15,367 nucleotides of DNA from Desulfobacterales bacterium (lineage in GTDB: Bacteria; Desulfobacterota; Desulfobacteria; Desulfobacterales; JAUCGF01): the NCBI GenBank assembly GCA_029940345.1, contig JAOZRC010000046.1, forward strand, positions 1 to 15,367, read 5' to 3'. Below, piece by piece: positions 2,042 through 15,030 of the stretch. Position 1 is the stretch's first letter. The number at the start of each line of letters is the position of its first letter. The notes below the pieces were generated by a model. It did not search any database and was not told where the DNA came from. It saw only the letters and a list, made by a program, of their open reading frames with translations. The position numbers and the translations under genes were made by a program.

Positions 2042-2881
2042 ATGGCTTCTGACAAGAGTATGGCATCTTTACTTAAAGAAAACAAGAAACTATTCATTAT
2101 AATGGCAATCGGTCTTTTGCTGATTGAATTGGAAATTTTTGCTTTTGCCGCAATTAAATCCGGTACGGAAGCGTGGCTCCAGATCATCGATAAAGAAGGC
2201 AACGTTATTCATGAAACCGATGGCGGCAACTTGAGTGATTTTAACAAATACTATTTTGAAAAGACCTTTGGCCCGTTGAGCCAGTACAAAGTAAAGCATG
2301 TGAAAAAAGATATACCGTTTCCGTTCAGGGCGTGGTTTGTCGCAGCCGTGGGAATTCCTATCGGCATGATGCTTTTATTCGGCTTTTTCGTCAGGGCCTA
2401 CGTTTCTTTATTTTATGGTGATGAACGCTCTGAAGATAAAACGGATGCGCCCCAAAAGGATAAGCAATCGGATGAAGAAACCCGGTTGGAAAAAATCATG
2501 AACCGGATTAGCCGTCATAACATCTTTATCATTGGCGGCCTTGTTATGATAGGGCTTTTTGCCTATTGGGTGATACCCAACTTTATCACTTATATCGGCC
2601 GCATGGGGGTTGACACCATCATTCGGTTTAAATGGTTTTTTGTGGGGGCGTTCACGCTATTCAGCGTTGTTATTATATGGTTACTTTATTTACGATATCT
2701 TTTAGCTAAAAAATCAATCGAGAGTCGCACCGAAATTGATAAACACCGCATCCAGCTTGAAATGAGTCGTGCGACGGACGTAGCCAATCAATTGGAGTAT
2801 AATCCAGCCGCGATACAAGCCCTTCCGGAGACAACATCCAAGGAGCCCGATCAAAAAACGGCTGCGGATAATAATGCATAA
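2042..2881 (+). CDS. Four-helix membrane protein of unknown function
   Basis: I do not recognise the family. From the preferred start the product is 279 residues with four hydrophobic segments at about residues 17-39, 95-121, 160-186 and 196-222. Between the first two is a polar stretch of about 55 residues (WLQIIDKEGNVIHETDGG and on) that is probably extracytoplasmic. Between the second and third is a very charged cytoplasmic loop rich in D, E and K. The C-terminal 55 residues are charged, begin KKSIESRTEIDKHRIQLEMS (possibly a short coiled coil) and end in a disordered-looking tail. The frame is open from ATG at 1988, and ATG codons also occur at 2033 and 2042. The one at 2042 is preferred because AAGGA lies about ten bases upstream, whereas 1988 has no ribosome site. 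The stop overlaps the start of the DHH-CBS gene by 8 bases, so the two are translationally coupled and probably functionally linked. No signal peptide cleavage site is evident. Confidence 0.75.
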   Translation: MASDKSMASLLKENKKLFIIMAIGLLLIELEIFAFAAIKSGTEAWLQIIDKEGNVIHETDGGNLSDFNKYYFEKTFGPLSQYKVKHVKKDIPFPFRAWFVAAVGIPIGMMLLFGFFVRAYVSLFYGDERSEDKTDAPQKDKQSDEETRLEKIMNRISRHNIFIIGGLVMIGLFAYWVIPNFITYIGRMGVDTIIRFKWFFVGAFTLFSVVIIWLLYLRYLLAKKSIESRTEIDKHRIQLEMSRATDVANQLEYNPAAIQALPETTSKEPDQKTAADNNA

Positions 2882-4184
2882 CTTTCATTCAATTATCACA
2901 ACGCATCGAAACACTGATTTTGATGCCTTGGCGAGTGTTGCGGCGGCGAATCTTTTATATCCGGATGCCAAACCGGTGTTGCCTCGTAATCTGAATCCGA
3001 ATGTCAAAGCGTTTTTATCCCTGCATAAAGAACTTTTTCGGATGTATGCCCCCAACGAAATCTGTCCTGATGCGGTGAAACATCTGGTTGTCGTTGATAT
3101 TAACCGCTGGGGGCGTCTTGAAGGACTCAACTGTTTGGCGAACCGGGATGATCTTGAGATTATTCTATGGGATCACCACCTGCATGATACGGATATCTTA
3201 GCGGATTGGAAATGCCAGGAAGCGATGGGGGCGACGATTTCGCTCCTGGCGCGCCGGTTACAAGCGGAAAAAATAGGTCTGACGCCGATCCAGGCCACTC
3301 TCTTTTTAATTGGGCTATACGAAGATACCGGACATTTGACATTTGCCGGAACGCGATCTGATGACGCTCGTGCGGCGGCCTATTTGCTGGATAATGACGC
3401 TGATTTGGGTGTGTTGAGTTCATTTTTGCGTCCCGGCTATGGTGCGGCACATAAAAATGTTTTGTTTAAGATGCTTGAGACAGCGGCCCGCATTACCTTG
3501 AATGGCTACAATTTCAGTATCAGTCAAATCGCAATTGACGGCCATATCGATGGCCTGGCCATGGTGGTGCGCATGTACCGCGAGCTTTTAAACTTAGACG
3601 CCGCCTTCGGCATATTTAGCAGCCCCAAAAACAAGAAATGTATGGTGATCGGCCGTAGTGATAATGATGGGATTAATGTTGGCTCTATCATGCGCAGCTT
3701 GGGCGGCGGCGGTCATCCGGGAGCCGGTTCGGCGATGTTGAAGGCGGTGAATCCGGATACGATTGCCAGTATGATTAAAGCGCTTATACAGGGAAATCAG
3801 GAAGCTTCCGTACAAATTAGCGACATGATGTCTTCGCCGGTTTACACCATATTACCGGACACCAGTATGCATCAGGTGAAAACGATTTTGGACAGGGAAG
3901 GCTATACGGGCCTACCGGTGGTTGATAATAAAAAGTTGTTGGGTGTTATTTCCAAGCGGGATATTCGCAAAATTAAAAATCCGCGACGTCTTAATGCGCC
4001 GGTGAAAGGCTTTATGAATCGGCGTGTCCAAACGATCTCACCGGATAAAAATCCGTCCCAGGCCGCCCGTCTGATGGTCAAATATGATATCGGACGTTTG
4101 CCGGTGTTAGAGGGTGATAAACTCATCGGCATTATTACGCGCTCGGATGTGATGAAGCATTTTTATCATTCATTGCCGGGTTGA
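2874..4184 (+). CDS. DHH/DHHA1 phosphoesterase with tandem CBS domains
   Basis: A 436-residue cytoplasmic protein. DHH motif I is H11-R-N-T-D15-F-D17, motif II contains D75 (VVVDINRWG), motif III is D100-H-H, and motif IV includes D151 (YEDTGHLTF). A DHHA1 substrate domain follows with the GGGGHPGAGSA loop at about 277-287. Two CBS domains occupy roughly 317-366 (MMSSPVYTILPDTS, GVISKRDI) and 377-430 (FMNRRVQTISPDKN, GIITRSDVM). All metal-binding residues are present, so Mn2+-dependent cleavage of a small phosphoester or short oligonucleotide is likely. The CBS pair probably binds an adenine nucleotide. The DHH-(DHHA1)-CBS order matches the front half of the DHH-CBS-poly(A)polymerase proteins (A-adding tRNA enzymes and relatives), but the reading frame stops after CBS2 and no polymerase motif follows. 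Candidate activities are nanoRNase or pApA/cyclic dinucleotide hydrolysis; neither can be chosen from sequence. The start overlaps the upstream membrane protein gene by 8 bases. Confidence 0.9.
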   Translation: MHNFHSIITTHRNTDFDALASVAAANLLYPDAKPVLPRNLNPNVKAFLSLHKELFRMYAPNEICPDAVKHLVVVDINRWGRLEGLNCLANRDDLEIILWDHHLHDTDILADWKCQEAMGATISLLARRLQAEKIGLTPIQATLFLIGLYEDTGHLTFAGTRSDDARAAAYLLDNDADLGVLSSFLRPGYGAAHKNVLFKMLETAARITLNGYNFSISQIAIDGHIDGLAMVVRMYRELLNLDAAFGIFSSPKNKKCMVIGRSDNDGINVGSIMRSLGGGGHPGAGSAMLKAVNPDTIASMIKALIQGNQEASVQISDMMSSPVYTILPDTSMHQVKTILDREGYTGLPVVDNKKLLGVISKRDIRKIKNPRRLNAPVKGFMNRRVQTISPDKNPSQAARLMVKYDIGRLPVLEGDKLIGIITRSDVMKHFYHSLPG

Positions 4185-8459: not shown

Positions 8460-9200
8460 ATGCGAATTGCGATTGTTTCAGATATCCACGGTAATATGGA
8501 AGCGCTCAAAAAGGTGGTTGTCAATATTGGCGTTTCCAGGATTGATGCGGTCATTTCCATCGGTGACAATATCGGGTACGGCCCCGAATCCGAAGAGGTG
8601 GCCCAGTTGATTCGGCAAAGTGATATCCCCTCGGTGATGGGCAACCACGAACTCGGCCTGGTTGATCGCACCTATCTTGCAAATTTCAATCCGACCGCGC
8701 GTGACTCTTTGCTGAAAACGGGCTCGCAACTGTCCAATGACACCATCAACTATATTTGTACGCTCAAGTCTTTTCTGGTCACCCATGGGATGCGCTTTGT
8801 ACACGGGTTCCCACCGGACTCGGTTGTCATGTATCAGTTCCAGGCTGATGATGCGGATATTCGCAACGCCTTACAGCGATTTGATGAAAAAATCTGTTTC
8901 ACAGGGCATTCCCACTACCTGGAACTGATCGATTCAGACGGGGAGAAGATCACCCGGCGTCCATTGGCAGAAGAGATTGTCGCCCTGGACCGGCAACATC
9001 GCTATATCATCAATATCGGCAGTGTCGGGCAGCCTCGGGATGACGACAAAAGTGCAAAATACGCCATTATGGACACGGAAGCTTACACGATGGAAATAAA
9101 ATTTGTTCCGTATGATATTATGAAAACCGTCAAAAAAATACTCAAAGCCGGCTTTCCTGCCGCCAATGCGCGTCGGTTGATGAAATCGAACATCAAATAA
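8460..9200 (+). CDS. Calcineurin-like metallophosphoesterase (small YfcE/MJ0936-like class)
   Basis: A 246-residue cytoplasmic phosphoesterase with a complete two-metal site: D8-x-H10 in SDIHGNMEAL, GD36-N in IGDNIGYGP, GNH63E, H115 in FVHGFPP, and GH150-S-H152 in FTGHSHYLEL. The NIGSVGQPRD segment is typical of this family. Relatives hydrolyse model phosphodiesters or phosphomonoesters, and their natural substrates are mostly unknown. It starts 26 bases after glgA with only a weak GTGAG ribosome site, so it is most likely the last gene of the glg transcript. The context allows a role in sugar-phosphate or nucleotide metabolism, but that is inference from position only. The protein is slightly longer than YfcE, with a basic C-terminus. 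Confidence 0.9.
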   Translation: MRIAIVSDIHGNMEALKKVVVNIGVSRIDAVISIGDNIGYGPESEEVAQLIRQSDIPSVMGNHELGLVDRTYLANFNPTARDSLLKTGSQLSNDTINYICTLKSFLVTHGMRFVHGFPPDSVVMYQFQADDADIRNALQRFDEKICFTGHSHYLELIDSDGEKITRRPLAEEIVALDRQHRYIINIGSVGQPRDDDKSAKYAIMDTEAYTMEIKFVPYDIMKTVKKILKAGFPAANARRLMKSNIK

Positions 9201-9261
9201 CAAATAAAAGCCAAATGGCAAAATACAAAAAAAGCATCCCACATTCGTCGGTTTACACGTT

Positions 9262-9325
9262 GTCCCGTCAGGGACTTAATATCTATAGCAAAAAAGGCTT
9301 ACCCATAAGCAAGTCCCGTAGGGAC
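9262..9325. repeat. Cluster of three short hairpins (REP/BIME-like)
   Basis: Three palindromes follow one another. They are GTCCC-GTCA-GGGAC at 9262-9275, GCTTA-CCCA-TAAGC at 9297-9310, and GTCCC-GTA-GGGAC at 9313-9325. The two GTCCC elements are clearly copies of one unit. The block lies between the phosphoesterase stop and the SNF2 promoter, where it could act as a transcript-end stabiliser or a transcriptional insulator. No T-run follows any stem, so an intrinsic terminator is not indicated. I recall GTCCCGTAGGGAC-type repeats as dispersed elements in several bacterial genomes but cannot verify copy number here. Confidence 0.65.
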
Positions 9326-9360
9326 GATATGGAAAAAGTTTAAATCGCTTTCAGGCTATT

Positions 9361-9389
9361 TTGAAGGATGCCAAAAAAACAAATATAAG
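9361..9389 (+). promoter_or_regulatory. Sigma70-like promoter for the SNF2 operon
   Basis: TTGAAG (9361-9366) and TATAAG (9384-9389) are separated by exactly 17 bases, matching the -35 and -10 consensus at 4 and 5 of 6 positions. Transcription would begin near 9396, leaving a leader of about 30 bases before the ATG at 9427. It follows the hairpin cluster that closes the glycogen block. Confidence 0.5.
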
Positions 9390-9426
9390 CCAAAAACCCA
9401 AAAACACCAAACCCTGAAAATAATTA

Positions 9427-12237
9427 ATGACGAAAAAACAGAAACTGAATACGGCAATCGACATTTTTGAAAAATTGAAACGTCCCAAAACCTTTATCAA
9501 CAAACAAAAAAAGCCACACCGACTTTTTTTCCAGCTCGGATTCGATTCCGAAGGCGCTTATCTCCGGGTGGTGAATCATAAAGGGAAGGCCATAGAGCCT
9601 GACTATGAATATCACAGCGGCGCTGTCCGTGAACTTTTGAAATCGTTCGACGCCATCCGGAATCGCAACAGCTTCCGGATTGAATGGGACAATCCCCGTG
9701 GTGAGGTATACCTGGGGGAAAACGACCATCTCCTATGGCAACTGAAGCGGTGTGATAATTTTGTTGACCCGGATTTCAATCCTGTCCGGTTCTCATCCGA
9801 CCCCGGCAAACTGATATTTCTGATTGAAAACAAAGGCGCCGCCCTCACCGGTAAAATCATCCTTGCGGCCAATGGCGCGCATATCGAAAAAATTGCCCTG
9901 CTGAATGAAAACCATGCGTTTGCCGGTGGCGTTATTTATACGATTCCGCCGTTGAGTGTGAACTATAAGCTGATTGATTTTTTTCGCATCGCCCTGTTGC
10001 CGGCTGATATGACAGAGAAGTACCTTTCGTTGCTTTTTTCCTGTTTCAGTAACATTCATGTGCGCTATAACGGCTATAAAGTGGTGATCGGCGAACCCAA
10101 AATAACGCGGCCCACGCTGATCATTGAAAAAATTGACGTCGACAATGCGCTGCATCTGCGCCTTGCCACCTCTCTGCCCGGTTTTGATCCCGATTTTTTC
10201 GATGCTTACGATGTCACCCGTGTTGCCATGCTCAACGATTTGGAGAAAAAAATCACCGTTTCCGACATTGAATATGAAGAAATATATTCCGGATGGAAAG
10301 AGATCGAAAAATTACTCAATAAACATCGGCGTGTGCTTAAAAACGGAACCGGTTATTTCATTGATGACAATCTGTTTATCATTGACGAATCTTTGGCCAA
10401 GGCGTTTATTCATGCCGAACTTCCCCACCTGATCACCCGCTTTGCCGTTATGGGCGCTGAAAAATTAAAGACGTTTAAAATCCGTGCGGTCAAACCGAAA
10501 CTGGACCTGTCTTTGTCTCATGGAATTGATTTTCTGGAAGGCGATGCGCGTCTTGAGATCGAAGGCCAATATATTCCGCTTTTCGATGCGCTGAATCAAT
10601 ATAAGAAAAATTCTTATATCACGCTGAATGACGGCGTCAATGCCATTGTCAATCAGGATTATATGAACAAGCTGATGCGCCTTTTTAAAAATCAAGGCAA
10701 GAAAAAGGATGCGAAGGTCAAGGTATCGTTTTTCGACTTGCCGATTGTCGAAGAGATGATTGATGAGAAAATCGCGGCCAGCGCCTTTAAGCAATCAAGG
10801 GATATTTTTTTAGGGTTTAACAAACTGAGTAAATCCAAACCGCGTTTCCCTAAATTGAACACGCAGTTGCGCGACTACCAAAAACAGGGCTTCAAATGGG
10901 TGAAATATCTGAACCGGCATGAACTGGGCGGATGTCTGGCCGATGATATGGGCTTAGGTAAGACGGTTCAGGCGATTGCTATGCTGGCATCGGTTTATCC
11001 TAAGCAGGCCAAACCGTCGCTGATTGTTATGCCTCGCAGTCTCTTGTTTAACTGGGAAAACGAAATCCGTAAATTTCGACCGCAATTGACGTTCACCATC
11101 TATCACGGCCAGAATCGCGACTTTGCCGCGGCCAAAGCGAACAACCTGATTTTAACGACCTACGCAATGATTCGCAACGATATTGAGATATTGCAGGATG
11201 TGGCATTTTATTATATCATTTTAGATGAGTCTCAACACATCAAAAATTTAAACTCCAAGATATCCAAGGCCGTGATGCTGCTTGATTCCAAGCACCGGCT
11301 GGCGTTAAGCGGCACGCCTGTCGAAAATAACCTGGGCGAACTGTACGCCTTGTTCCGGTTTTTGAACCCTTCCATGTTCGGTTCCGTACAGGATTTCAAT
11401 CGCAACTATGCGACCCCGATTCAGAAAAACGATGACAAGGACGCGCTGCACGATCTCAAAAAGAAAATTTACCCGTTTATTCTCCGGCGCCTCAAAGGCG
11501 AAGTGCTCAAGGACCTTCCGGATAAAGTGGAGCAAACCCTGTATGTGGACATGAGCGATGAACAGAAATCGCTTTACGAACAGCGACGCCGCTTTTATTA
11601 TGAAACGGTCAAGGCGCAGATCGCTCAGAACGGTATTCGTAAATCCCAGTTTTTTATCCTCCAGGCCCTTAGCGAACTGCGCCAGATTGCGGCTGTCCCT
11701 GAGTCTAAAAGTGAAAACGGCATTATCTCACCCAAACGCGAAGTGCTGAAAGAGTATTTTGTCGATCTGGCAGCCAATAACCATAAAATACTCTTGTTTG
11801 CCAATTTTCTCAATGCGTTGGACTGTGTTGCCAACGACCTGGAAGAGGCCGGCATCGATTACTTGCAGATGACCGGTGCCACCCGCGACCGCAAGCGCTT
11901 GGTGGATCGTTTCCAGGAGGATGAGAATGTCAAGGTGTTCCTGATGACGCTGAAAACCGGCGGGCTGGGGCTGAATCTCACGGCCGCGGATTATATCTTT
12001 ATCTTTGACCCCTGGTGGAACCGGTCGGCTGAAAATCAAGCGATTGACCGCACCCATCGGATCGGACAGAAAAAGACCGTTTTTGCGTATCGGCTTATCA
12101 CCCGGGCAACCATCGAAGAGAAGATTCTGCGCCTCCAGGAGCAAAAAAGCCAACTGTTTGACAGTCTGATCTCCAGCGATGGCGCTTCGATCAAAGCCAT
12201 GAGTGTGAAAGACGTCGAATATGTTTTGGGAGATTAA
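9427..12237 (+). CDS. SNF2-family ATPase (DEAD/DEAH-like superfamily 2)
   Basis: A 936-residue SNF2/Rad54-type motor that should use ATP to move along double-stranded DNA and displace or remodel bound proteins; it is not expected to unwind strands. The ATPase occupies about residues 485-936. QLRDYQKQGFKWV is the Q-motif region, followed by Walker A GLGKT with K512, the DESQ box at D600-Q603 (an uncommon variant of DExQ/DExH), SGTPVENNLGELYALFRF (motif III), TGGLGLNLTAADYIFIFDPWWN (motif V), and DRTHRIGQ with R875 and R878 (motif VI). It ends in KDVEYVLGD. Residues 1-480 resemble nothing I can name: mixed alpha/beta, lysine-rich, without SWIM-type cysteines (CxC...CxH). This half probably gives target or partner specificity. 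The ATG at 9427 has no strong ribosome site in its AT-rich leader, but no other nearby methionine is in frame. The partner gene begins 3 bases after the stop. Family is certain; biological role unknown. Confidence 0.93.
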   Translation: MTKKQKLNTAIDIFEKLKRPKTFINKQKKPHRLFFQLGFDSEGAYLRVVNHKGKAIEPDYEYHSGAVRELLKSFDAIRNRNSFRIEWDNPRGEVYLGENDHLLWQLKRCDNFVDPDFNPVRFSSDPGKLIFLIENKGAALTGKIILAANGAHIEKIALLNENHAFAGGVIYTIPPLSVNYKLIDFFRIALLPADMTEKYLSLLFSCFSNIHVRYNGYKVVIGEPKITRPTLIIEKIDVDNALHLRLATSLPGFDPDFFDAYDVTRVAMLNDLEKKITVSDIEYEEIYSGWKEIEKLLNKHRRVLKNGTGYFIDDNLFIIDESLAKAFIHAELPHLITRFAVMGAEKLKTFKIRAVKPKLDLSLSHGIDFLEGDARLEIEGQYIPLFDALNQYKKNSYITLNDGVNAIVNQDYMNKLMRLFKNQGKKKDAKVKVSFFDLPIVEEMIDEKIAASAFKQSRDIFLGFNKLSKSKPRFPKLNTQLRDYQKQGFKWVKYLNRHELGGCLADDMGLGKTVQAIAMLASVYPKQAKPSLIVMPRSLLFNWENEIRKFRPQLTFTIYHGQNRDFAAAKANNLILTTYAMIRNDIEILQDVAFYYIILDESQHIKNLNSKISKAVMLLDSKHRLALSGTPVENNLGELYALFRFLNPSMFGSVQDFNRNYATPIQKNDDKDALHDLKKKIYPFILRRLKGEVLKDLPDKVEQTLYVDMSDEQKSLYEQRRRFYYETVKAQIAQNGIRKSQFFILQALSELRQIAAVPESKSENGIISPKREVLKEYFVDLAANNHKILLFANFLNALDCVANDLEEAGIDYLQMTGATRDRKRLVDRFQEDENVKVFLMTLKTGGLGLNLTAADYIFIFDPWWNRSAENQAIDRTHRIGQKKTVFAYRLITRATIEEKILRLQEQKSQLFDSLISSDGASIKAMSVKDVEYVLGD
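12228..12232 (+). promoter_or_regulatory. Ribosome binding site inside the SNF2 gene
   Basis: GGGAG lies eight bases before the ATG at 12241 and within the last codons of the SNF2 gene. This is direct evidence that the second gene is translated from the SNF2 message and fixes its start. Confidence 0.65.
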
Positions 12238-12240
12238 GCC

Positions 12241-14916
12241 ATGCCGACTGTTCGTGATCGCCTGATCCGTCTCTACCCGGAAGATTATCTGGATGACATA
12301 GAATCCACGTCAAAGTGGACGAGCGCTACGGATACATGCAGTCTTTGCGGGGACGATTCCTTCAAGCCGTTATGCCGCACGGCGTCAGCGAATGTGTGTG
12401 CGGGCTGCGCCAGGGCAATTTTAAAAGCGGTGGCGGATGACGCCGAAATTGCGGCATGGCACTACGGCCGTATTCAAAAGGCGCTCGCGTCTGCCGGGGC
12501 GTTGAGACAGCGGCTGACCGTTTTATGGCGCTATAAAGAGGCCGAATCGTTGTTTGTCAAACAGCCCTCTTCGGACGTTTCCGAATTACATCGGTTACTG
12601 GTGTCCAACCTGGGGTTTATCACCCAACATCCCATGGACAATGCCGTGCGCCAGGCCGCTTACGAAGCCTGTGTCAGCGCCGGTGAAACAGTTCTTCCTG
12701 CGCTGTTGTCCCGCAAAGATATCACCAAACCGTGGAAACTGTATGCCAACATCGTGTTAAGCGCCGGAACCATCGCACCGGATCATCCTGAAGTGCGCCA
12801 ATTGCTGGTAAAAGCGTCTCAGCATGCCAATCCCAATGTGCGCGGCCGGGTGGCGTCCGCTATTATGGGGCATGACACACCCTGGGTTCGGAATATGCTG
12901 AAGCGTCTCAAGGCCGATCCCAATCCGCGGGTGCGCGAATTTATCGTTTCAGAGAACTGCCAGATGCCCTTATTCAAGAAACCGGCCAAGCCGAAGACAT
13001 TCAGATCGAAAGAGTCTGAACGCAACCATGCGCTTTTATCCGAACCAGGTGCGGCCATCGTCCAGGTGATTGACAAGCACTACTCCAAGGCGGTTCTGAT
13101 AACGATTTATAATACCTATTTACATCATTTTTACACCGAAGATGATTTTGACCTCAAAGGCGGTTTTGCGATCAGCAAACTCAGCAAGGCCAAGTTGGTG
13201 CGGGCATTGGCGTATATCCTGGCAGAGCCGGATATGCTGGCCGCCCTGGTGTCCGGGATGCCCCCGGGGGTTAAAACGGTGCTTGACACCCTGGTCTGGG
13301 AAGGCGGCCAACACCTTGCCCAAAATCTTGATACCGACAATACTTTTGAACCGCCGCTTATCACCCATAAAAAAGAGAAACGATTCGGCCCGAATGTTAA
13401 GAAAGTCGGCTACCTCAGCCTGCCCTACCAGGTTTTCCCGTATCAAAGCGACTACCATTTCGCAGGTGGCAGCCTATACTATGATTATTACCTGTTCCTG
13501 CCGGAAGTGCTGCGCAAGGTCTTTAAAACGGTGCTTTCGCCCCCGTCCGCCTATCATCTCAAAGGCCGGCCGGCCATTGGTAAAACCGCTTACATATATG
13601 AAGACCGCCACCGCATTTTAAGCCGTATCGAATTGTTTTGCGCCTACATCGCCCAGGGCAATCTGAAGTATTCCAAAAGCGGTGAAAAAGTTCTCAAAAC
13701 CTCTGTCAGGCAGATGGCCAAGTACTGTGACATTGAAGAATTTTACGATCCCAAGGACAAAGACCTGGGGGTGTTAAGAACCTCCCTGATTATCGATTTT
13801 TTGACCAGCTACGGGGATGCCCAAAAACCCACTTCGGCGGCGTCGGCAAGTCCGGCCTTTTTGAAACGGATCTTCACCGCTTTTTTCCAGGACAGCCCTG
13901 AATACGGCGGCTATTATCTGAACCGCCTGCTGTCACATCTGAAAGGTGTTCATAATCTCAAATCCGGCTATTATGAACAGGAGCATCGCCAGAATGAGCG
14001 AACGGTGCGAGCCTCCCTGGCAATGCTGCTGAAAAAATTACCGGCCGAGAAAGGTGCCTGCCAGTGGACGTCCGTGTCCGATCTGATCAAATACTGCCTG
14101 TACCGGGATATCGATCTGCGCATTGTCGACCGCGACTTTGCCTCGCGCTACCTCTCTCTTGACCGTGAGATGAATTCGGGGATCGGGTATCGGCAGATAC
14201 ATATCGGTTCGTCGCTTTATACGGAGGCCGTCACGGCTCCGTTTCTCAAAGGCGTGTTGTTTTTATTGGCCGCTTTCGGACTCGCGGATATCGCCTACGA
14301 TACGCCTGCAAATGATCGCCTGCGGAAAAAAAACAAGGGCTATCTGTCGGTATTCGATGGCCTTCGCTATGTCCGTCTCACCGAACCAGGCGCGTATGTG
14401 GCGGGCCTGACAGACACCTATAATGATTTAAAAAAAACCGGCGTTTCGGAAAAACAAAGCGCTGAGATCATTTTGGATGACACGCGCCTGCTGATCCGTT
14501 TGGAGGGCCAAGACCGCCTGAAAGCGATGACTTTGGAACGGCTGTCGGAAAAAGTCAGCGCGAATAGCTACAAAGTCACCTTCCAGTCTTTCCTCAAAGA
14601 GTGCGCCTCCGCAAAGGATATTCATGCCAAAGTCAAACTCTTCAAAGAACAGATCGCATCTGACCCACCCCCCCTATGGCTGGATTTTCTAAATGACATC
14701 GTTAACAAAATCGACCCCTTAAGCCCCCGACCGGACATGCATCTGTTCCGCCTGAGCGATAATAAGGAATTGATCACCTTAATGGCCCGGGATGCGATTT
14801 TGAAAAAATATATTTTCAAGGCCGAAGATTATCACATCGCCATTCGTTCTGAAAACCTCCTCAAGGTCAAAAAACGCCTGGAAGAGTTTGGGTATTTTAT
14901 TACCCAGCTTCGGTGA
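12241..14916 (+). CDS. Zinc-site, HEAT-like and helicase-associated-domain-like partner of the SNF2 protein
   Basis: An 891-residue soluble protein I cannot name outright. Residues 33-56 hold a four-cysteine zinc site (C33-x2-C36, then C53-x2-C56, with C45 between). Residues about 115-240 are paired helices of HEAT type, clearest in PDHPEVRQLLVKASQ and DPNPRVREFIVSE. From about 300 the text changes. SKAKLVRALAYILAEPDMLA then PPGVKTVLDTLVWEGG resembles the repeating start of the helicase-associated winged-helix family (PF13625-like, found beside or within XPB-type helicases). Near the end, LLIRLEGQDRLKAMTLERLS then YKVTFQSFLKECASAKDI and FRLSDNKELITLMARDAILK then KKRLEEFGYF match the shape of that family's C-terminus. 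No ATPase or nuclease motif is visible. It starts 3 bases after the SNF2 stop. I infer a DNA- or protein-binding cofactor that recruits or regulates the SNF2 motor. Gene certain, domain reading moderate, function inferred. Confidence 0.8.
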   Translation: MPTVRDRLIRLYPEDYLDDIESTSKWTSATDTCSLCGDDSFKPLCRTASANVCAGCARAILKAVADDAEIAAWHYGRIQKALASAGALRQRLTVLWRYKEAESLFVKQPSSDVSELHRLLVSNLGFITQHPMDNAVRQAAYEACVSAGETVLPALLSRKDITKPWKLYANIVLSAGTIAPDHPEVRQLLVKASQHANPNVRGRVASAIMGHDTPWVRNMLKRLKADPNPRVREFIVSENCQMPLFKKPAKPKTFRSKESERNHALLSEPGAAIVQVIDKHYSKAVLITIYNTYLHHFYTEDDFDLKGGFAISKLSKAKLVRALAYILAEPDMLAALVSGMPPGVKTVLDTLVWEGGQHLAQNLDTDNTFEPPLITHKKEKRFGPNVKKVGYLSLPYQVFPYQSDYHFAGGSLYYDYYLFLPEVLRKVFKTVLSPPSAYHLKGRPAIGKTAYIYEDRHRILSRIELFCAYIAQGNLKYSKSGEKVLKTSVRQMAKYCDIEEFYDPKDKDLGVLRTSLIIDFLTSYGDAQKPTSAASASPAFLKRIFTAFFQDSPEYGGYYLNRLLSHLKGVHNLKSGYYEQEHRQNERTVRASLAMLLKKLPAEKGACQWTSVSDLIKYCLYRDIDLRIVDRDFASRYLSLDREMNSGIGYRQIHIGSSLYTEAVTAPFLKGVLFLLAAFGLADIAYDTPANDRLRKKNKGYLSVFDGLRYVRLTEPGAYVAGLTDTYNDLKKTGVSEKQSAEIILDDTRLLIRLEGQDRLKAMTLERLSEKVSANSYKVTFQSFLKECASAKDIHAKVKLFKEQIASDPPPLWLDFLNDIVNKIDPLSPRPDMHLFRLSDNKELITLMARDAILKKYIFKAEDYHIAIRSENLLKVKKRLEEFGYFITQLR

Positions 14917-14971
14917 GTTTTTACCTTATGACGTGGGTCAGTCAGCACTGGAGATTAAAGAGTCGAGGTAG

Positions 14972-14998
14972 GTCGGGTTAGCGCTAGCGTAACCCGAC
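14972..14998. repeat. REP-like palindrome
   Basis: GTCGGGTTA (14972-14980) and TAACCCGAC (14990-14998) are exact inverse complements around GCGCTAGCG, which is itself nearly palindromic. The preceding GAGGTAG and following AAATAAATA are typical flanks of the dispersed GTCGGGTTA/TAACCCGAC repeats I recall from many bacterial genomes, some linked to REP-associated (RAYT) transposases. It sits 55 bases after the stop of the SNF2 partner gene. It may fold in the transcript and protect the 3' end, but no T-run follows. The rest of 14917-15030 shows no gene. Confidence 0.75.
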
Positions 14999-15030
14999 AA
15001 ATAAATATATATGGTTAGAAATCAAAATTT

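Follow-up and report, generated by a model that had tools for sequence, protein, structure and literature searches.

A conserved bacterial gene pair encoding an SNF2-family ATPase and a putative p52-like adaptor

The window (the whole 15,367-nucleotide stretch analysed here) is positions 1 to 15,367 of contig JAOZRC010000046.1, assembly GCA_029940345.1, from a Desulfobacterales bacterium; it is contig C562 of our set, in a genome of 6.05 Mb that is 93% complete. It carries two consecutive genes, for an SNF2-family ATPase and for a partner protein whose core is homologous to proteins encoded beside bacterial XPB helicases. We think it probable that the pair specifies a two-subunit double-stranded-DNA translocase, an SNF2 motor with a p52-like adaptor and an optional Zn/HEAT arm; the physical complex, the translocation, the target and the pathway are what we infer. 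As far as our literature search shows, such a motor-adaptor pair has not been described. The features of the pair are as follows.

9427..12237, + strand: SNF2-family ATPase, open reading frame (ORF) of 936 aa, assigned from Pfam and motifs
12228..12232, + strand: GGGAG, ribosome-site-like, within the end of the SNF2 gene, 8 bases 5′ of the partner ATG (read from the sequence)
12241..14916, + strand: partner, ORF of 891 aa, Zn/HEAT module plus putative p52-like adaptor core
12337..12408, + strand: CxxC...CxxC, putative zinc site, partner residues 33-56; C33, C36, C53 and C56 invariant in 17 of 17 aligned rows
12430..12975, + strand: HEAT-like helical repeats, partner residues ~64-245; Pfam match at 164-233 (PF13646, E 7.5e-7)
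13084..14913, + strand: adaptor core, partner residues ~282-891, homologous to XPB-adjacent proteins by profile-profile comparison
14461..14832, + strand: candidate PF13625 / p52-clutch-like segment, partner residues ~741-864; limits approximate, from alignments to the L051 and L108 proteins

The layout agrees with the original prediction, made from the window alone, of two ORFs separated by 3 bases (SNF2 stop to partner start) with the ribosome site of the second inside the first. That prediction had also proposed a conserved two-gene unit, which would fail if the partner were not kept beside SNF2 in other genomes. When SNF2 residues 1-470 were searched against 146 genomes of the order (expect value, E, at most 1e-20), 15 carriers came up, all of which have a partner sequence. 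The partner lies directly downstream on the same strand in 12 of them, counting G046, whose SNF2 spans two ORFs and whose partner gene is cut by the contig end. Elsewhere the partner begins at a contig end (G523), is on another contig (G458), or is a remnant of 99 positions (profile 8-106) lying 22 bases downstream of an intact SNF2 gene and followed by SelB-like and cysteinyl-tRNA-synthetase-like genes (G496, locus L132). The reverse search, with the partner profile at E of at most 1e-5, matched 17 of the 146 genomes: the same 15, and G494 and G521, whose weaker matches (3e-14 and 5e-18) are to 621-632-aa p52-like proteins of a different type that lack an adjacent SNF2 or XPB gene. The window is kin to Desulfococcaceae bacterium HSG9, which has a partner 66% identical and a similar upstream gene order as judged by ORF lengths.

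Pairwise distances among SNF2 proteins track those among partners (r 0.93, 0 of 10000 permutations, 13 pairs), a correlation that speaks for co-inheritance and not for contact. The gene order recurs in Fusobacterium vincentii SB055 (L143), where an 899-aa SNF2 gene is followed without a gap by a 597-aa partner gene (26% identity; 302 bits with A1, the profile of the window partner). A single small ORF separates this partner from the DNA polymerase III alpha gene downstream. The record carries a plasmid label, but its length of 2.1 Mb and its dnaE lead us to read it as chromosome. A frameshift-rich Fusobacterium polymorphum record holds pieces of the same gene order. SNF2 and partner are a conserved unit. 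As a side observation, the PLSDB Fusobacterium 'plasmids' NZ_CP084075.1 and NZ_CP084113.1 look chromosomal (2.1 Mb with dnaE; 17 kb, frameshift-rich, with dnaE fragments).

The SNF2 protein has Pfam matches to SNF2_rel, ResIII and Helicase_C at residues 480-880 (PF00176, E 1.3e-70; PF00271, E 2.1e-18), and residues ~471-936 make up the motor. Its motifs are I (DMGLGKT, 507), II (DESQ, 600), III (SGTP, 628), V (845) and VI (QAIDRTHRIGQ, 871); motif II is present in 29 of 30 aligned homologues and the other four in all 30. On these sequence criteria the window ATPase belongs to the SNF2 family of SF2 ATPases. The first ~480 residues match no Pfam family at E<1, as expected from the earlier description of this half as unassigned, and the reported lack of SWIM cysteines holds as well, with the motif CxC..CxH absent from all 30 homologues and from the window protein, which has 4 Cys. 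One relative (L071) has a match in its N-terminal half to PF08455, a bacterial SNF2-associated family (3.7e-4, 20.0 bits, cut-off 27). The predicted model has a mean predicted local distance difference test score (pLDDT) of 70.2 and a predicted template modelling score (pTM) of 0.41, residues 31-425 lying mostly at pLDDT 75-92. Its best matches in the fold search are the Sulfolobus SNF2 core (1z63) and ZorD, ISW1 and Mot1 chains; the listings are filled by the ATPase half, and a structural clutch-like counterpart in the N-terminal half could be masked.

Two other SNF2 arrangements were seen. At L040 (2247-4925 and 7187-9984) the pair, with an SNF2 spanning two ORFs, has another SNF2 gene of PF12419 type in its vicinity. 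At L155 (565-6578) the gene for a 586-aa p52-like protein is divergently oriented to that for a 1402-aa SNF2 protein of a different type (42% identity over the ATPase half), with ~45 bases separating the two.

Relatives of this ATPase half occur in defence systems. The pair might be an anti-phage module in which an SNF2 motor and a Zn/HEAT sensor act like ZorD, DpdE or DrmD and the partner is the recognition factor. We judge this unlikely. In PADLOC the SNF2 protein matches DpdE (E 3.5e-137) and ZorD (7.1e-106) best, and ZorD ranks second in its Foldseek search over 927 columns, but the two PADLOC matches begin at residues 391 and 386, leaving most of the N-terminal half uncovered. For the partner, PADLOC gave no match to any model. 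Pfam and NCBIfam recognised no Zorya, DISARM or Dpd companion among the nine scanned window ORFs, on a contig that ends 451 bases past the partner. The distribution is patchy (15 of 146 genomes), as a defence module would allow, and defence-type neighbours exist: AAA/STAND, Schlafen-AlbA and reverse transcriptase genes beside SNF2 at L131, a gene behind dnaE in Fusobacterium that encodes a D12 adenine methyltransferase, and PADLOC matches to type I restriction, reverse transcriptase, Cas1 and mad among 102 flanking ORFs. That scan covered ORFs of at least 130 aa at 16 loci, with SNF2, the partner and ORFs running off the 3′ locus end left out and ORFs entering from the 5′ end counted from the first start codon onward. 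None of the 25 PADLOC families listed, out of 74, matches more than 2 of the 102 ORFs (raw counts), and the annotated flanking genes are mainly metabolic or signalling, some being defence- or mobile-type. No copy was found in phage records, and a scan of viral contigs (two peptide patterns, 153 stretches) confirmed none; both searches were limited.

The prediction of a CxxC/CxxC site and HEAT-like helices in the partner is borne out by the invariant cysteines and by the PF13646 match, HEAT being all that Pfam finds in it above the cut-off. The AlphaFold2 model of the partner has pLDDT 82.6 and pTM 0.62. Across the pairs the Zn/HEAT module is variable and the core is retained. Long partners with Zn/HEAT measure 858-904 aa (complete long pairs of the distance-correlation set), and short ones of 597-628 aa have the core only (L041, L042, L043, L046, L128, L133, L143). 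The module is also found elsewhere: in L049 (residues 116-342) it is fused to a related SNF2 motor (1116-1644) in one 1659-aa ORF in which the core was not detected, and in P0029 (724-937) it stands behind a WD40 region. By sequence, then, it is the core that always accompanies the motor in gene pairs; L049 is the exception. A partner variant of ~690 aa at L044 (3716-8914) and L045 has Zn/HEAT plus roughly the last 430 core positions; at L044 it is flanked by the genes for IMP dehydrogenase and GMP synthase, with SNF2 not next door.

The single partner sequence gave only noise against the PDB. VIA-align of the partner returned a list filled by HEAT proteins and silent on the core, p52 not being among the rows listed. 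The partner profile in 395 genomes gave 18 weak matches (E 1e-7 to 1e-3), of which 16 fall in the HEAT region and are uninformative on the core; the other two, at L050 and L051, fall in the core. Three matches were judged to be chance: botulinum neurotoxin A light chain to profile positions 278-337 (PDB, E 0.017-0.1), Peptidase_M27 in 1 of 17 rows (E 0.008), both because HExxH is in none of the 17 rows, and NF040728 (E 0.063).

Profile comparison connects the core to proteins encoded beside bacterial XPB. Profile A1 combines the window partner with 16 relatives from databases, the gene context being examined for a minority of these. Profile A3 consists of ten XPB partners: eight were collected by a PF13625 match, L113 and L070 by adjacency and BLAST similarity; nine of the ten adjoin a same-strand XPB-type ORF, that of L112 not being on its contig. 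XPB itself was identified by Pfam for L050, L051, L070 and L142 and elsewhere by PF13625 match and alignment. The ten members of A3 are a choice; six complete partners from f93, the largest XPB group (L094, L095, L096, L099, L103, L104), were added only in a set of 16.

A1 matched two XPB-adjacent proteins, L050 (2.4e-7) and L051 (5.0e-4), and the L051 protein retrieves the window partner in return (3.1e-5). In profile-profile comparison the A1 core matched the eight PF13625-matching XPB partners with E 3.7e-10 (score 91.4, 487 columns, partner residues 282-890) and all ten with E 2.7e-9, while 2 reversed and 20 column-shuffled controls for these comparisons scored at most 22.3. Another alignment of the ten gave E 2.6e-10 over 205 columns, which became 2.2e-7 with 16 partners, and L051 with L107 alone scored 58.5 (E 2.9e-6). 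A bridge is provided by the L142 protein (genome G458), encoded 1 kb from an XPB gene. It has a PF13625 match of 1.4e-7 (32.0 bits, cut-off 34.2) and is matched by both the SNF2-partner profile (67 bits) and the XPB-partner profile (71 bits). Adding it to the ten gave E 5e-17 (score 147, 490 columns; one reversed and 20 shuffled controls at most 24.8).

By these comparisons the partner core is homologous to the XPB partners and falls in the same PF13625 / XPB-partner superfamily. The C-terminal part thus resembles PF13625-bearing XPB partners and not an unrelated fold, and the motor-plus-adaptor reading gains from this and from the conserved unit. The PF13625-like segment that the original prediction saw in the partner is recovered by profile-profile comparison and missed by Pfam, where the window partner lacks a PF13625 hit at E<1; the family is likewise absent among the 25 of 34 families listed for the 17-row alignment.

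The genome of the window has such an XPB locus of its own: contig C942 (L070, 946-5746) encodes XPB with an upstream 564-aa partner-like gene, overlapping if a TTG start is used, and a 464-aa gene lacking a Pfam match, an apparent three-gene XPB operon. The ORFs of L113 are similar in size and order.

This L070 gene would suit a reading in which SNF2 and the p52-like protein beside it are neighbours without a shared complex, the partner working with the genome's XPB or another factor, as would the p52-like proteins without an adjacent motor at L153 and L154. We consider that very improbable: the partner accompanies SNF2 in 15 of 15 genomes and adjoins it in 12, the divergence of the two is correlated, another phylum has the same gene order, and L049 shows a module fusion.

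The eukaryotic protein p52/TFB2 was named as the likely counterpart of the partner ahead of the fold search. Foldseek with the partner model against the PDB then gave four matches with E<0.001, all to chains of 434-441 residues in TFIIH-containing entries. One, 8ebt_D, is general transcription factor IIH subunit 4, and the other three are probably p52, going by entry and length. Profile A6, of XPB partners, had 12 matches with E of at most 10 among 177,635 distinct PDB sequences, seven to XPB/RAD25 and five to TFB2/p52. XPB/RAD25 reached 0.0043 at best; yeast TFB2 gave 0.0045 (residues 336-404) and human p52 0.29 (323-388). The matches are weak (E 0.004-0.3) and located at the N-terminal domain (NTD) of XPB and the clutch of TFB2/p52. 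The bacterial XPB NTD matched the C-terminal domain of the XPB partners with E 5.5e-12 in profile comparison (shuffles at most 16.8). The same arrangement is found in the human XPB-p52 pseudo-symmetric dimer (PMC6422496). PMC13024598 reports p52/p8 as both enabling and limiting the XPB ATPase and anchoring the motor. The p52 link of the SNF2 partner comes from the fold search and from transitivity via the XPB partners, which suggest that the partner core resembles p52 and its clutch. A literature search lacking most subscription journals found no description of a p52-like partner of bacterial XPB or SNF2.

Several results weigh against the proposed adaptor. With TM-scores of 0.13-0.23 and root-mean-square deviations of 23-25, the p52-type Foldseek matches allow us to claim only local similarity. 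In the PDB, A3 matched seven XPB chains, two p52 (E 0.38-0.40) and two unrelated chains; A5, which includes SNF2 partners, matched seven XPB, no p52 and three unrelated; and A1 matched neither XPB nor p52. The homology of XPB NTD and XPB partner is in part a product of selection, eight of the ten partners having been collected with PF13625, and the XPB NTD compared directly with the SNF2-partner profile scored 25.0, with shuffles at 25.9. Nor did profile comparison find a clutch or XPB-NTD-like domain in the N-terminal half of SNF2 (19.6, shuffles up to 18.9).

The core homology also depends on diverse XPB partners, because f93 by itself falls short of significance (29.1 with its 11 partners). 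Scores at or near noise also came from five f93 partners alone (28.9) and from L113 with L070 alone (32.3), and a 14-member set scored 21.8, six of its rows being short (232-356 aa), several truncated at locus ends and some perhaps read in the wrong frame. Of 43 candidate ORFs at nine XPB loci, A1 matched just two, those of L050 and L051. The XPB-partner profile found two of six new SNF2 partners at E<1e-4, one at 0.0046 and one at 0.62, and missed two. Finally, some partner-like proteins lack a neighbouring SNF2 or XPB gene (L044, L045, L153, L154). For the p52-like proteins of L153 (4910-6808) and L154 (5609-7477), neither was detected within 12 kb around.

A further reading is a pair for transcription or RNA-polymerase recycling, functionally like RapA or Mfd, whose adaptor would contact RNA polymerase; we hold this to be doubtful. 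The bacterial SNF2 protein RapA does match the ATPase (NF003426, E 5.6e-12), but far under the cut-off, at 44.7 of 576 bits. p52 works in a transcription factor (PMC6422496), and the fold search with the motor also matched chains of Mot1, ISW1 and CSB; no RNA-polymerase-binding module turned up, although no search was aimed at one.

In the two-subunit translocase that we favour, the SNF2 protein would be the ATP-driven motor. The C-terminal ~600 residues of the partner would hold it, stimulate or limit its ATPase and link it to a target, with a clutch-like domain as in TFIIH p52/TFB2. The Zn/HEAT module at the partner N-terminus is probably a target-recognition arm, by analogy with the HEAT arm of Mot1. 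It may be that the motor moves along duplex DNA and dislodges or remodels a protein bound there, genome maintenance or transcription being the likeliest setting. No single pathway is indicated by the annotated neighbours, which are diverse (glycogen, molybdopterin oxidoreductase, histidine kinase, SelB, dnaE).

More tentatively, there may be a bacterial superfamily of p52/clutch adaptors with branches for XPB and for SNF2. The XPB-p52 core of TFIIH might then derive from a bacterial-type two-gene cassette, and the SNF2 branch might have swapped the motor and kept the adaptor, with a Zn/HEAT arm added in some lineages. We regard this as possible and rather less than probable. If the adaptor is p52-like, one kind of adaptor serves two motor families as far apart as XPB and SNF2, and the origin of the TFIIH XPB-p52 core becomes testable in simple two-protein bacterial systems. 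If our reading is true, unannotated bacterial SNF2 operons gain a testable mechanism.

Repeats flanking both ends of the unit and a good promoter upstream had been offered in support of the pair. The elements concerned are these.

9245..9345, no strand assigned: dispersed genomic repeat, 40 matches in the genome including its own copy (40 of 83 scored candidates)
14968..15001, no strand assigned: dispersed palindromic repeat, 35 matches in the genome including its own copy

The two are unrelated in sequence, and we rejected them as ends of a mobile unit: they are two different elements dispersed genome-wide and do not delimit the pair. The promoter is at chance level. No site passes on the + strand at 9150-9427, a 9/12 match lies at 9361, and the whole scanned region gave 11 sites against 6.9 +/- 2.6 in shuffles. 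Both arguments therefore fail.

Upstream of the pair the window holds an alpha-glucan phosphorylase / GlgA-like / metallophosphoesterase run (Pfam, NCBIfam). Rfam over the window gave nothing at the gathering threshold, and a tRNA search found none. At 2874-4184 lies a gene for a DHH-DHHA1-CBS protein resembling the first half of an A-adding tRNA nucleotidyltransferase (model positions 3-428 of 880); it adjoins a gene for a 297-aa protein without a convincing family.

Known systems share parts of this design. The NCBIfam models of SCO1167/SCO6262-type and pilus-regulating SNF2 helicases resemble the ATPase half (E 1.6e-113 and 2.9e-116), but well short of the cut-offs, at 380.6 of 1200 and 389.8 of 1100 bits, with matches that start at residue 471. 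DpdE, ZorD and DrmD also have a related SNF2 ATPase half; their systems, Dpd, Zorya and DISARM, have companions such as DpdA, ZorA/B and DrmA/B, whereas no companion genes were recognised in the window and its partner is without a PADLOC match. Mot1 joins an SNF2 motor to a TBP-binding HEAT arm in one polypeptide, and here the HEAT arm is on a separate partner; we know of no p52-like core in Mot1. Closer are the bacterial XPB genes with an adjacent partner (L108-L111, L050, L051, L107, L113, L070), which have the same two-gene motor-adaptor layout and cores homologous by profile comparison. They differ in motor family and in that Pfam recognises PF13625 in 8 of 10 XPB partners and not in the window partner. 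The XPB-p52 (Ssl2-TFB2) module of TFIIH differs in that the motor here is SNF2, with no XPB-NTD-like domain found, and in the Zn/HEAT arm. The window pair would be like it in combining an SF2 double-stranded-DNA translocase with a separate adaptor that bears a candidate clutch-type domain in its C-terminal part, and p52-type chains are the best structural matches of the window partner.

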